Positions 3,049 through 28,243 of a stretch of DNA of 33,745 nucleotides are shown here, in pieces. The stretch's first letter is position 1, and each line of letters begins with the position of its first letter. The notes beneath the pieces were generated by a model that was given only the letters and a program-made list of their open reading frames with translations, did not search any database and was not told where the DNA came from. Origin of the DNA: an uncultured Oscillospiraceae bacterium (GTDB lineage Bacteria; Bacillota; Clostridia; Oscillospirales; Oscillospiraceae); assembly GCA_944385125.1 (NCBI GenBank), contig CALWVZ010000020.1, positions 1 to 33,745 on the forward strand. Direction: 5' to 3'. Both the position numbers and the translations under genes were made by a program.

Positions 3049-4176
3049 GTGAACAAACTGACACAGATAAGCCGGCGGCAGCTTTTCACCCTGGCCACGC
3101 TTATGCTGCTGGTGCCCTCTCTCCGGCTCTTTATCACTGCGGCCACAGAGTATGCAGGGCTGGCAGTGTGGCTGACGGCGCCCCTGGCGGCCCTGCCCAT
3201 GCTGCTGTATATGCATTTCATATCGGACTTTATGGACTGCCGCCGGGAGGGGGAGAACCTCCAGGAGCTGTTCCTCCGCTGCCTGGGCCCGAAACTGGGG
3301 AAGGCCGCCCTGGCCCTCACCGCCGCCTGGCTCACTCTCTATTCCGGCTTTATCCTCCGTTCCGGGGCTGACCGGCTGATAGTCACCATCTATCCTGACA
3401 GCTCCCCCTGGGTCTTTACTCTGGGCTTGGGTCTGGTGTGCCTTGTTGCGGCTCTGGGCAACCCCCGCTCCATAGTCCGCTCCGCCATGCTCATAAGCCC
3501 GGTGCTCATCGGCTCCCTGCTGCTGATTTTCATCTTCTCCCTCAGCTCTCTGGAGCCCTCCAATCTCCTGCCCGTCACCGTGGACGACGCCCTCCCCGTG
3601 GCTCTTGGCTCCCTGGCCGCCGTGGACGTGCTCTCCTTTGGGGTCTACGCCGTGTGCTTTATTGAGGGGCTCTGCCCCAAGGAGGCGGGCCGGGCCCGGC
3701 AGGGCAGTCTCTGGCTCATGGTCATGGTGCTGCTGATGAGCCTGCTGTGTCTGTCGGTGGTGGGCATGTTCGGCCCGGAGCTCTGCTCCCAGCTCAGCCG
3801 CCCCTTTTTCATCATGGTGAGAAACCTGGTGTTTTTCCACACCGTGGAGCGGGTGGAGGCCCTGGTGGTGATGCTCTGGCTCTTCCCGGACTTTCTGCTG
3901 GTGTCGGTGTTCCTCTACGCCGCCCAGTACTGCCTGCGCCTCAGTCTGGGCCTGGAGGCCGCCTATCAGGGGGAGCGGCTCACGGATATGAGCCGGGGCC
4001 GCTGGCTCATCTGGCCCACGGCCTTGACGGCCATAGTCTGTTCCCTCTTCATCGGCCCCGATTCCGTGAGCATGGAATTTTGGTCGGCAAAGCTGATACC
4101 GGCCATCAACCTGCTCTTCGCCTTTGTGTTCATCCCCTCTATTTATATAGTAGGAAAAATAAAAAAGACGCTGTGA
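3049..4176 (+). CDS. gerAB: Spore germinant receptor B subunit (endospore germination permease)
   Basis: B subunit of the germinant receptor, a membrane protein of the APC-transporter-like spore germination family that is thought to bind the germinant. The 375-residue protein is almost entirely hydrophobic, with about 10 predicted transmembrane segments, and its start (ISRRQLFTLATLMLLVPS) matches the family. The start is GTG at 3049, with AAGGAAG about 8 nt upstream inside the end of gerAC. The TGA stop (4174-4176) lies within the left arm of the terminator hairpin, so the coding end and the terminator overlap. Gene order is A-C-B, where Bacillus gerA is A-B-C. Confidence 0.9.
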   Translation: MNKLTQISRRQLFTLATLMLLVPSLRLFITAATEYAGLAVWLTAPLAALPMLLYMHFISDFMDCRREGENLQELFLRCLGPKLGKAALALTAAWLTLYSGFILRSGADRLIVTIYPDSSPWVFTLGLGLVCLVAALGNPRSIVRSAMLISPVLIGSLLLIFIFSLSSLEPSNLLPVTVDDALPVALGSLAAVDVLSFGVYAVCFIEGLCPKEAGRARQGSLWLMVMVLLMSLLCLSVVGMFGPELCSQLSRPFFIMVRNLVFFHTVERVEALVVMLWLFPDFLLVSVFLYAAQYCLRLSLGLEAAYQGERLTDMSRGRWLIWPTALTAIVCSLFIGPDSVSMEFWSAKLIPAINLLFAFVFIPSIYIVGKIKKTL

Positions 4177-4193
4177 TTTTTGGTCACAGCGTC
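4167..4193. terminator. Terminator hairpin, left copy at repeat 1
   Basis: A perfect stem, GACGCTGTGA pairing with TCACAGCGTC, with a T-rich loop. It is preceded by six A, which read as a T-run on the minus strand, so it should terminate the leftward DHHW/MBOAT transcript. No T-run follows on the plus strand. The same 27-nt hairpin recurs at 4398-4424 with a single base difference. Confidence 0.75.
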
Positions 4194-4397
4194 TCAGCTT
4201 GTCGAAGAAGGCCAAGCCTTCTTCGACAAAAGGGCTTGCACTTCGCTCCATGCCTCAGTTGTACGCCAGAGGCGTACAATTCGACACTTCGCTCCGTGAG
4301 AAGTGTTTTCTGCGACGTACACGCCGCCGCAGAAAACGATTTAAATTATTTTTTCGCTGCGGCGAAAAAACTCTGCGAGGCTTTTTCGACAGTCTCA
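4194..4397 (+). repeat. Structured interspersed repeat, copy 1 (terminator-flanked)
   Basis: A 204-bp element repeated at 8406-8608 (about a dozen differences) and, inverted and more diverged, at 28011-28211. Hairpins in order: GTCGAAGAAGGC/GCCTTCTTCGAC (4201-4227), TTGTACGCC/GGCGTACAA (about 4259-4279), CACTTC/GAAGTG, GTTTTCTGCG/CGCAGAAAAC (4305-4337), and TTTTTTCGC/GCGAAAAAA. The two ends form an imperfect terminal inverted repeat around TGTCGAA (14 of 19 positions). One frame stays open through it, but I see no start codon with a ribosome site and do not call it a gene. It is flanked by two copies of the local terminator hairpin. Confidence 0.85.
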
Positions 4398-4428
4398 GAC
4401 GCTGTGATTTTTCGTCACAGCGTCTTTT
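4398..4428 (+). terminator. Terminator hairpin, right copy at repeat 1
   Basis: The same hairpin as 4167-4193 with one loop base changed (C for G), followed by TTTT on the plus strand. It should stop transcripts coming from gerAB after they have read through the repeat. Between them, the two hairpin copies give the convergent gerA and DHHW operons one terminator each. Confidence 0.75.
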
Positions 4429-4430
4429 CA

Positions 4431-5552
4431 TCATTCCAGCCAGATGAAGTTGCTGTCGCTGAGGAAGTTTCCAATGGAGTAGGCCACCAGCACCTGGTCA
4501 AAGCCCTCCTGCCGGTAAAGCTCCGACAAGGGCTCCTTGTAATAGCGCAGGTCCGCCAGCACCACGGTCTTGTAGCTTCCGGCCAGGAAGCAGCCCAGGC
4601 AGTTGGAATAGGAGTCCCGTATCACCAGCAGGCTGCCCTCCGCCTCCGGGTCCTGATTTTCTATGCGCACCAGGGGGTGGTTGCCGTCCAGCCAGTAGGT
4701 GTACTTGTCCGTTTCCTCCAGGCGCTCCGGGAAAAACAGGCTGTGAAATTCCCCCTCCCGGTCGGAGAAAGTGACGGTATAGCTGCCCCCGTCCTCCCAG
4801 ACCTCCATGTCCTCCGGCGGGTACTGCCACAGGCAGCTGCGGGAATAGGTGCTGCCGTAAAAGCCGGGGATATAGCTGAGGCTGTAGTCTTCCTCCGCCC
4901 GGCTCTCCCGGCCCAGGCTCTCCATATACTCCCTGTAAGCCAACCAGGCCCCGTAGGCCGTCCAGTGGTGATCGGTGCGGTAGTAGAGCCGCTCCCTGTC
5001 CGCCCCGGCGAAGGGCCCCAGCAGGTCCAGGCAGCGCAGCTCCTCCCTCGCCAGGGCATAGGCGGAGGCTATCAGCTCGTCGTCAATATAGGGATTTTTA
5101 AGGCCCTTAATGTCCTCCTGCATCATATAGCCCGCCGAGGGCACCAGCATGAAGTCCACATCCCGGCCCAGCTTTTGGGCAAAGGCGTTTATATATTCCA
5201 TGTGCTCCTCTGTGGAGGCACCGTCCGCCCGGCAGGGGGCCTCGTAGAGCCGGCCGCTCTCCCCCACATAGATGTCCTTGGTGACCTGCAGGCCCATGAG
5301 CCTTTCCCCGTTTGCGGCAAGGCCCACGAAGAAGTCCCGGAAGGGCAGGTGGTCGGCCATGTATTTCTCCGCTTTCTCCCCGAAGTCCCCGGAGCTGAGA
5401 CTGTCCCAGCTCAGCTGCGGCAGCTTTTCCAGATAGCGCTTCTCCTTTTGGGAAAAGTCCTCCTTGGGCAGCAGCAGGAACAGGGCCGCCATGGCGAAGA
5501 CCGCCAGCAAAAACAGCAGGCAGACCAGATAGTCTCTCAGTTTTCCTTTCAT
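4431..5552 (-). CDS. DHHW family protein (AlgJ/AlgX-like acyl-transfer partner)
   Basis: Membrane-anchored extracytoplasmic protein of the DHHW family, usually encoded beside an MBOAT acyltransferase and thought to hand an acetyl group to a surface polymer. The 373-residue protein starts with a basic stretch and one transmembrane segment (about 9-28), followed by the conserved YLEKLPQ region. The hallmark RTDHHWTAYGAW lies near residues 195-206 and carries the Asp/His pair expected of an SGNH-like hydrolase fold. A late VIRDSYSN would be the nucleophile-type GDS-like motif. It starts 11 nt after the MBOAT stop, so the two are co-expressed. The substrate polymer is not known. Confidence 0.85.
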   Translation of the reverse strand: MKGKLRDYLVCLLFLLAVFAMAALFLLLPKEDFSQKEKRYLEKLPQLSWDSLSSGDFGEKAEKYMADHLPFRDFFVGLAANGERLMGLQVTKDIYVGESGRLYEAPCRADGASTEEHMEYINAFAQKLGRDVDFMLVPSAGYMMQEDIKGLKNPYIDDELIASAYALAREELRCLDLLGPFAGADRERLYYRTDHHWTAYGAWLAYREYMESLGRESRAEEDYSLSYIPGFYGSTYSRSCLWQYPPEDMEVWEDGGSYTVTFSDREGEFHSLFFPERLEETDKYTYWLDGNHPLVRIENQDPEAEGSLLVIRDSYSNCLGCFLAGSYKTVVLADLRYYKEPLSELYRQEGFDQVLVAYSIGNFLSDSNFIWLE

Positions 5553-8377: not shown

Positions 8378-8405
8378 AGCGCAAAGCCTTTGCAGGCTTT
8401 GCGCT
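8378..8405 (-). terminator. Terminator hairpin, left copy at repeat 2
   Basis: An intact stem, AGCGCAAAGCC pairing with GGCTTTGCGCT. On the minus strand it is followed by the T-rich TTCTTAAT. It should end the mfd-foldase transcript after that transcript has crossed repeat 2. A diverged copy of the same 28-nt hairpin (20 of 28 positions) is at 8609-8636. Confidence 0.65.
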
Positions 8406-8608
8406 CAGCTTGTTGAAGAAGGCATAGCCTTCTTCAACAAAAGGGGCTTGCACTTCGCTTCATGCCTCGGTTGTACGCCAAAGGCGTACAATTCGACACT
8501 TCGCTCCGTGAGAAGTGTTTTCTGCGACGCACATGTCGCCGCAGAAAACGATTTAATTTATTTTTTCGCTGCGGCGAAAAAACTCTGCGAGGCTTTTTCG
8601 ACAGTCTC
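8406..8608 (+). repeat. Structured interspersed repeat, copy 2 (terminator-flanked)
   Basis: A 203-bp element about 94% identical to copy 1, with one single-base length difference. The first stem is GTTGAAGAAGGC/GCCTTCTTCAAC (8412-8438): a C-G pair of copy 1 has become T-A, a compensatory change. The stem GTTTTCTGCG/CGCAGAAAAC (8517-8549) is unchanged. The frame that is open through copies 1 and 3 is broken by a stop in the first hairpin here. The element lies in the 3' region of the foldase gene and would be transcribed in reverse as part of its 3' UTR. Confidence 0.85.
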
Positions 8609-8636
8609 AGCTCAAAATCTTAAAAGACCTTGCGCT
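8609..8636. repeat. Decayed terminator-hairpin duplicate, right side of repeat 2
   Basis: The same length as the hairpin at 8378-8405 and matching at 20 of 28 positions, but the stem has several mismatches and there is no T-run on the minus strand. It is the copy nearest the foldase stop and looks like a relic of a target duplication that is no longer needed for termination. Confidence 0.6.
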
Positions 8637-27941: not shown

Positions 27942-27984
27942 CATAAATATAATATAGAAAGATATACAAAATTATAAACAAAAA

Positions 27985-28005
27985 CCGGCGGAAATTTTCT
28001 ATGAT
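27985..28005. repeat. Decayed terminator-hairpin duplicate, left side of repeat 3
   Basis: CCGGCGGAAATTTTC is identical to the first 15 bases of the intact hairpin at 28218-28238, and the A and T flanks also match. The last six bases, which would close the stem, are all changed. This is the copy distal to serS, where a second terminator is not required. Confidence 0.6.
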
Positions 28006-28010
28006 TTTTT

Positions 28011-28211
28011 GAAACTTTCAAGAAAGCCTCACAGAGTTTTTTAAACCCAGCAAAAAAATAATTTGAATCGTTTTCCGCAGCGGCGTGTACGTTGCGGAAA
28101 ACACTTCTCACGGAGCGGAGTGTCGAATTGTACGCCGTAGGCGTACAACCGAGGCATGAAGCGAAGTGCAAGCTTTTTTGTAAAAGAAGGCATAGCCTTC
28201 TTTTACAAGCT
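28011..28211 (-). repeat. Structured interspersed repeat, copy 3 (inverted, terminator-flanked)
   Basis: A 201-bp, more diverged copy in the opposite orientation to copies 1 and 2, lying between the serS terminator and the dnaA promoter. Stems are kept by paired changes: GTAAAAGAAGGC/GCCTTCTTTTAC (28180-28206) against GTCGAA.../...TTCGAC, and GTTTTCCGCA/TGCGGAAAAC (28070-28102) against GTTTTCTGCG/CGCAGAAAAC. The stem nearest the far end, TTTTTTCGC in the other copies, is largely lost. The 421-bp gap between dnaA and serS holds only this element, its flanking hairpins and the dnaA promoter. Confidence 0.85.
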
Positions 28212-28243
28212 AAAAAACCGGCGGAAATTTTCCGCCGGTTTTT
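28212..28243 (-). terminator. serS terminator, intact hairpin at repeat 3
   Basis: CCGGCGG pairs with CCGCCGG (28218-28238), with six A before and five T after on the plus strand, so it has T-runs in both directions. On the minus strand it follows the serS stop by about 30 bp and ends the parA-parB-serS operon before repeat 3 is reached. Confidence 0.8.

Follow-up and report, generated by a model that had tools for sequence, protein, structure and literature searches.

Most DDE transposable elements generate a target duplication of fixed length that is set by the transposase. Group IIC introns insert beside terminator hairpins and are not known to duplicate the hairpin. Hairpins also serve as targets within the IS1182 family. 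For IS1272 and TnSha1 of staphylococci, target hairpins are reported to be deleted without target duplication (PMC4923244), and several of them were confirmed as terminators (PMC5678879, PMC4923244). One of these papers proposes that IS1272 attacks the 3' feet of the hairpin, which is thereby lost, and also depicts a possible route by which the ends join at the 5' feet and the whole hairpin is duplicated (PMC5678879). A review is cited in both papers for palindromic targets of some IS1182 members.

The window, i.e. the whole stretch of DNA that was analysed (33,745 nucleotides), is contig C20 of the genome of an uncultured Oscillospiraceae bacterium (G000; 2.0 Mb, 86 contigs, 76% complete), referred to below as the source genome. 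A first-pass annotation of the window claimed that the same element of about 200 bp sits between paired hairpins and that the hairpin differs by locus, which was confirmed at three sites (Table 1) and genome-wide. At site 1 the two hairpins match at 26 of 27 positions, and the element lies between a spore-permease-like gene (3049–4176) and a DHHW-family gene (4431–5552), which converge; all of its 204 bases are the same as those of five other copies in the source genome. The element is located between a GDSL-lipase-like gene and a PPIC-rotamase-like gene at site 2 and between dnaA and a seryl-tRNA synthetase gene at site 3, where the repeat search returned a flanking repeat of 35 nt at 80% identity. 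Sites 2 and 3 are weak when taken singly; the case for duplication rests on the other copies in the genome. An Rfam scan of the window gave zero matches at the gathering score.

Table 1 Repeat copies and their target hairpins in the window.
Feature	Position	Strand	Basis or remark
Site 1, left target hairpin copy	4167–4193	.	Sequence read, flank comparison
Site 1, MITE copy 1	4194–4397	+	Ends TCAGCTTGTCGAAG...CTTTTTCGACAGTCTCA; genome repeat search
Site 1, right target hairpin copy	4398–4424	.	TTTTC directly after
Site 2, left target hairpin copy	8379–8404	.	Intact
Site 2, MITE copy 2	8405–8609	+	94% to copy 1
Site 2, right target hairpin copy	8610–8635	.	Decayed, 18/26 match with left
Site 3, left target hairpin copy	27980–28009	.	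3' arm decayed/lost
Site 3, MITE copy 3	28010–28213	-	86% to copy 1
Site 3, right target hairpin copy	28214–28243	.	Intact

In the source genome, 40 stretches match the 204-bp element and 18 of them are near full-length (at least 192 bases aligned). Recent spread of the repeat is suggested because six copies are identical across all 204 bases. Most copies in this genome adjoin a hairpin of their own sequence, as judged by eye. The repeat was matched in 21 of 60 genomes, namely the source genome, 19 of the 36 others of the genus (many with partial matches), and G042, which belongs to a different family in the same order. A first look at G042 gave 109 candidates; the 13 matches listed for it are all partial.

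Flanks were measured for 58 copies, each matching over more than 150 bases, from five genomes, consisting of those in the source genome and 40 stretches from G003, G029, G016, and G012; further listed copies lie outside this sample. Four copies are cut by contig ends, and the 54 evaluable copies are not independent events since orthologous copies are included. The left and right flanks match with a score of at least 15 in 44 of the 54, while 2000 mismatched left/right pairs gave a median score of 7, a 99th percentile of 13, and a maximum of 22. In 37 of the 44 duplicated copies, the matching flanks start no more than one base away from the element at either end, and a strict boundary test was passed by 40 of the 54 MITEs as against 44 by match score. 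The hairpin is duplicated in 17 of the 18 near full-length copies of the source genome. Where loops are asymmetric, most hairpin copies are direct; one loop is apparently inverted in L013, L087, and L015 (by eye). Copies without hairpin duplicates, which the first-pass annotation had named as an argument against its reading, do occur: ten of the 54 score below 15 (L010, L084, L081, L092, L093, L098, L105, L109, L111, and L117). Among them, L010 and L084 are orthologous and decayed, L081 is flanked by two different whole hairpins, and L092 and L093 form the opposite ends of a single composite unit.

Relatives of the source genome retain alleles without the element. At position 17616 of contig C2 in the source genome, the element lies between two copies of gccaacaagcatacacttgttggc, and the same site in G003, G016, and G029 has in each case a single gccaacaagcatacacttgttggc copy and no element. 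The orthologues of the window sites at 28011 and 8406 are also empty in G029, with one hairpin each, while 28011 is occupied in G016 and 8406 in G003. For site 1, matches in G003, G016, and G029 extend into the element from its left and from its right, each side on a different contig. These three insertions are older, since the sites are occupied or entered in relatives. The single-hairpin empty sites at C2:17616, 8406, and 28011, a check that the first-pass annotation had proposed, indicate that the element inserts and duplicates a hairpin. They bear out its view of the hairpin as local DNA duplicated on insertion and identify the repeat as a miniature inverted-repeat transposable element (MITE). 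A non-autonomous mobile element had been proposed, and the other features agree with this: the element is short (204 bp), has no room for a transposase gene, occurs in many copies, duplicates its target, and has empty sites. In G016, the L013 site was considered as a further empty allele and dropped, because the segment in its place contains genes that, by eye, are purine-synthesis-like.

The IS1182 transposase profile NF033551 gave matches in 6 of the 9 genomes searched. Matches above the cut-off of 270 bits were found in three of the nine: the source genome (with one internal stop), G016, and G034. The scores of L066 (390 bits), a piece of L073 (297 bits), L068 (367 bits), and L072 (336 bits) all pass, and L067 of the source genome reaches 380 bits when scored across its stop. 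The first four (L066, L073, L068, and L072) are thus IS1182 transposases by NCBIfam, and they carry DDE domains according to Pfam (PF05598, PF01609, and PF13751 in L066; PF01609 and PF13751 in the L073 piece). The IS1182 elements L067 (G000:C12) and L073 (G016:C29) have the MITE terminal motif at both ends, and each lies between duplicated copies of its own hairpin. The ends are TCAGCTTGTCGAAGAA and TGAGACTGTCGAAAAA in the MITE, TCAGCTTGTCAAAAAA and CAGCCTGTCAAAGAA in L067 and L073, and TCAGCTTGTAGAAAAA and TCAGCCTGTCGAAAAA in L066, and the terminal inverted repeat around TGTCGAA that had been annotated is present. The MITE shares its ends with these IS elements over about 15–21 bp, to which the similarity is limited. 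The transposase of L067 contains the internal stop and that of L073 is split into two pieces. L066 encodes an uninterrupted transposase (494-aa frame) but has different hairpins on the left and right, and it was excluded from the count of duplications. On its left side only, L066 (1300–2930 within this G016 locus) is flanked by the terminator that carries MITE copy L014 in the source genome, a shared insertion place. Among the draft genomes carrying the repeat, no NF033551 match was found in G003 (which has many MITE copies), G007, and G042, and the search in draft genome G029 gave a fragment only.

Public genomes were scanned with L066 and L073, and the best 80 of 527 confirmed loci, close relatives by design, were analysed. 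Their records are mostly from Clostridia, one being the contig of L066 itself, and the genera include Gemmiger, Oscillibacter, Claveliimonas, Chakrabartyella (six loci), Acetobacterium, Desulfosporosinus, and Sporomusa. Fourteen of the 80 loci are too near a contig end, leaving 66 evaluable, and flanking sequence is duplicated in 45 of these 66 (best 80 of 527). The duplication length of the 45 IS loci is 17–39 bp (median 28), and that of the strict set of 40 MITEs is 20–33 bp. Exact dyad symmetry of the duplication was observed in 35 of the 45 IS loci from the best 80 of 527 and in 26 of the 40 MITEs. The mean paired fraction is 0.78 versus 0.40 after shuffling for the IS loci (best 80 of 527) and 0.77 versus 0.43 for the MITEs; the lowest values (0.59 for IS and 0.42 for MITE) and the shuffle maxima (0.50 and 0.58) are not far apart, and L107 is barely a hairpin. 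The duplication length is variable yet dyad-centred, which argues against measurement by a ruler of fixed size. Pairing continues into the adjacent flanking bases in 29 of the 45 IS loci (best 80 of 527) and 28 of the 40 MITEs, so that the cut lies near the foot of the longest possible stem but does not always coincide with it.

Many of the duplicated hairpins resemble intrinsic terminators in their flanks, in agreement with the terminator-like targets proposed in the first-pass annotation. A T-rich right flank (five or more T among the eight bases that follow the right copy) or an A-rich left flank (five or more A before the left copy) is present in 37 of the 45 IS loci among the best 80 of 527 and in 29 of the 40 MITEs (raw counts). 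There is no clear orientation preference at the target, with T-only versus A-only flanks numbering 14 versus 12 for the IS loci (best 80 of 527) and 4 versus 8 for the MITEs. No matching hairpin pair was found at 21 of the 66 IS loci (best 80 of 527) and at 10 of the 54 MITEs. Inspected by eye, 12 of these 21 IS loci carry whole hairpins that differ between left and right, about eight carry a single hairpin, and L195 carries none; they may be recombinants or assembly joins.

A search for the IS1182 family in 249 genomes of the phylum provided 29 further loci, some of which are cut by contig ends. Eight of the 29 score at least 22 for duplication and the rest score 12 or less. The eight duplicating loci have ends like CAGnCTGTnGA(C/A)AAA. 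Zero duplication scores of 15 or more were found among the sampled relatives with GGGGCTGT-type ends, and the loci of this type that were printed show no edge hairpins by eye. The input for a transposase tree comprised 56 rows: 25 of the 45 duplicating database loci, L240–L268, L068, and L072. A preliminary tree was discarded because L243 and L255 had very long branches and doubtful frames, and removal of rows with short frames (L161, L198, L243, L249, and L255) left 51 transposases. In the 51-row tree, 30 of the 31 duplicators fall in one clade of 32 with a support of 100/98. The other members of the clade are L246, which is cut by a contig end, and L247, which has a different hairpin on each side; L258 is the duplicator outside it. 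The duplicator label requires 4 changes on the tree versus a shuffled mean of 16, on a sample that is uneven because the database duplicators (best 80 of 527) were picked both for likeness to the queries and for duplicating.

Several copies depart from the simple arrangement. In contig C24 of G029 (957–2950 within L216, G029:C24:1500–9600), a VWA-domain gene lies between two MITEs that share one orientation. Of the hairpins of this unit, the outer two are near-copies (score 20) and the inner two differ. G003 lacks the element at the same place, between galactokinase-like and arginyl-tRNA synthetase-like genes (named by eye), and has there a single hairpin that is similar but has another loop. 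The VWA segment with the inner hairpins sits elsewhere in G003, and the source genome has a different hairpin at the equivalent place. The MITE pair may have moved the VWA gene as one transposon, or a circle with one MITE may have recombined into a resident MITE. A longer relative of the element, roughly 270–300 bp with an extra hairpin, is found at L032, L033, and L034 (G000:C1, C48, and C64); it carries a motif like AAAGGAG...ATGGATGAG, reminiscent of a ribosome site with a start, and no matching hairpin pair was seen by eye at the edges of these three loci. One MITE copy (L031, G000:C29:8900–10700) is interrupted by a segment of about 1.2 kb that contains an HNH gene and is bounded on each side by a 34-bp repeat. 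A nested insertion was set aside for this segment, and an assembly join was judged likely because the 34-bp repeat is not a whole hairpin.

The left end of the MITE is itself a hairpin (4199–4229 in the window and in other copies). Its pairing was assessed in 32 distinct sequences from 51 of the 58 copies, with at least 9 of 14 positions paired, a filter that favours pairing. Both sides had changed with pairing kept in 25 of 448 cells, and 9 cells were broken; 500 column shuffles, a control that still contains relatedness, gave a mean of 5.9 and a maximum of 12 double changes. Inverted loops were observed in this hairpin (CATAG/CTATG) and at site 2 (CCTTTGCAGG/CCTGCAAAGG). Such inversions give a hint of template switching in palindromes, in addition to selection.

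Taken together, the sequence comparisons make it very likely that DDE transposases of an IS1182 clade move the repeat, a MITE, in trans, with a hairpin target chosen by structure and duplicated whole. The mover would be the clade with terminal repeats of about CAGnCTGTC(G/A)AAAAA. The target would be selected by its secondary structure, not by its sequence, and would usually be a terminator-like hairpin, presumably extruded as a cruciform. The two 3' ends of the transposon would then be joined at the 5' foot of each cruciform arm, and these feet would face each other across the four-way junction at any stem length. Gap repair would copy the entire hairpin, so that the target duplication would equal the hairpin (17–39 bp), leaving the gene with a hairpin on either side of the insert. 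The hairpin duplication, the empty sites, the ends common to the MITE and IS1182 elements, and the clade come directly from the sequences; movement in trans, terminator function, cruciform extrusion, and the position of strand transfer are inferred. For the cruciform extrusion and the position of strand transfer, taken as a step by themselves, our confidence is modest, though above even.

At that step, with all else the same, the target might be recognised as a double-stranded palindrome or a single-stranded hairpin instead of an extruded cruciform. The sequences fit this equally well, and RNA polymerase pauses at terminators, where the DNA is locally open. A double-strand footprint of fixed size, however, would not give lengths of 17–39 bp that are mostly dyad-centred (IS loci, best 80 of 527), and we regard such recognition as possible but rather doubtful. 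An IS30-family partner was suggested in the first-pass annotation by analogy with IS1630, four copies of which are reported to have duplications of 16, 23, 25, and 26 bp (PMC3317919). This link was not supported: the IS30 profile NF033563, which matched in 3 of 14 control genomes, had no match in the source genome (76% complete), and the ends and target behaviour are common to the MITE and the IS1182 elements. The partner is probably not IS30, and an element like IS1630 in this role appears very improbable. That the hairpins belong to the element, or that the repeat sits between older tandem terminators, would agree with a hairpin beside nearly all copies but is scarcely credible, as the hairpin sequence varies by locus and the one-hairpin empty alleles at C2:17616 in three relatives refute it. 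Replacement of the hairpin on insertion as in IS1272, with a second hairpin from later recombination, would suit the common family but has almost nothing left to it, as both copies are identical, including asymmetric loops, in many insertions, and at C2:17616, where this reading is refuted, they agree with the one hairpin that the empty allele has.

Duplication of a structured target by the IS1182 clade can be placed beside the described systems as follows. By report, IS1272 and TnSha1 resemble the present elements in their transposase family, in hairpin targets without sequence consensus, and in insertion in either orientation (PMC5678879, PMC4923244). They differ in that IS1272, compared here by its description, is reported to delete or replace the hairpin, whereas in the present elements the whole hairpin is duplicated and present twice. 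IS1630 of Mycoplasma fermentans (IS30 family), as described, is similar in its variable-length duplication of inverted repeats and differs in its transposase family, for which the source genome has no match. The NF033551 transposase, the DDE domains, and the inverted-repeat ends are common to the IS1182 family; the sampled GGGGCTGT-type relatives differ in having no duplication score of at least 15. Palindromic IS1182 targets, hairpin deletion by IS1272, and the variable inverted-repeat duplication of IS1630 are already in print. Whole-hairpin duplication by IS1182 elements and an IS1182 MITE at terminators were not found in a search of the open-access literature. Neither did this search turn up an IS1182 clade that duplicates whole hairpins as a rule, or a MITE belonging to one.

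At dozens of sites, the fold of the target itself appears to set the duplication length. Terminators would let the element land without breaking a gene or losing the terminator of that gene. With IS1272 reported to remove its hairpin, two outcomes occur inside one family, and the reading of the hairpin and the strand position attacked by the transposase become testable. The present clade looks like the duplicating pathway drawn in PMC5678879. On balance, we favour a picture in which a clade widespread in Clostridia would pick its sites by DNA hairpin structure, the hairpin would set the duplication length, host terminators would be duplicated, and MITE pairs may carry a host gene between terminators. 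Together with IS1272, one family would then include both duplication and destruction of one kind of target, with the outcome set by the cruciform foot that the transposase attacks.
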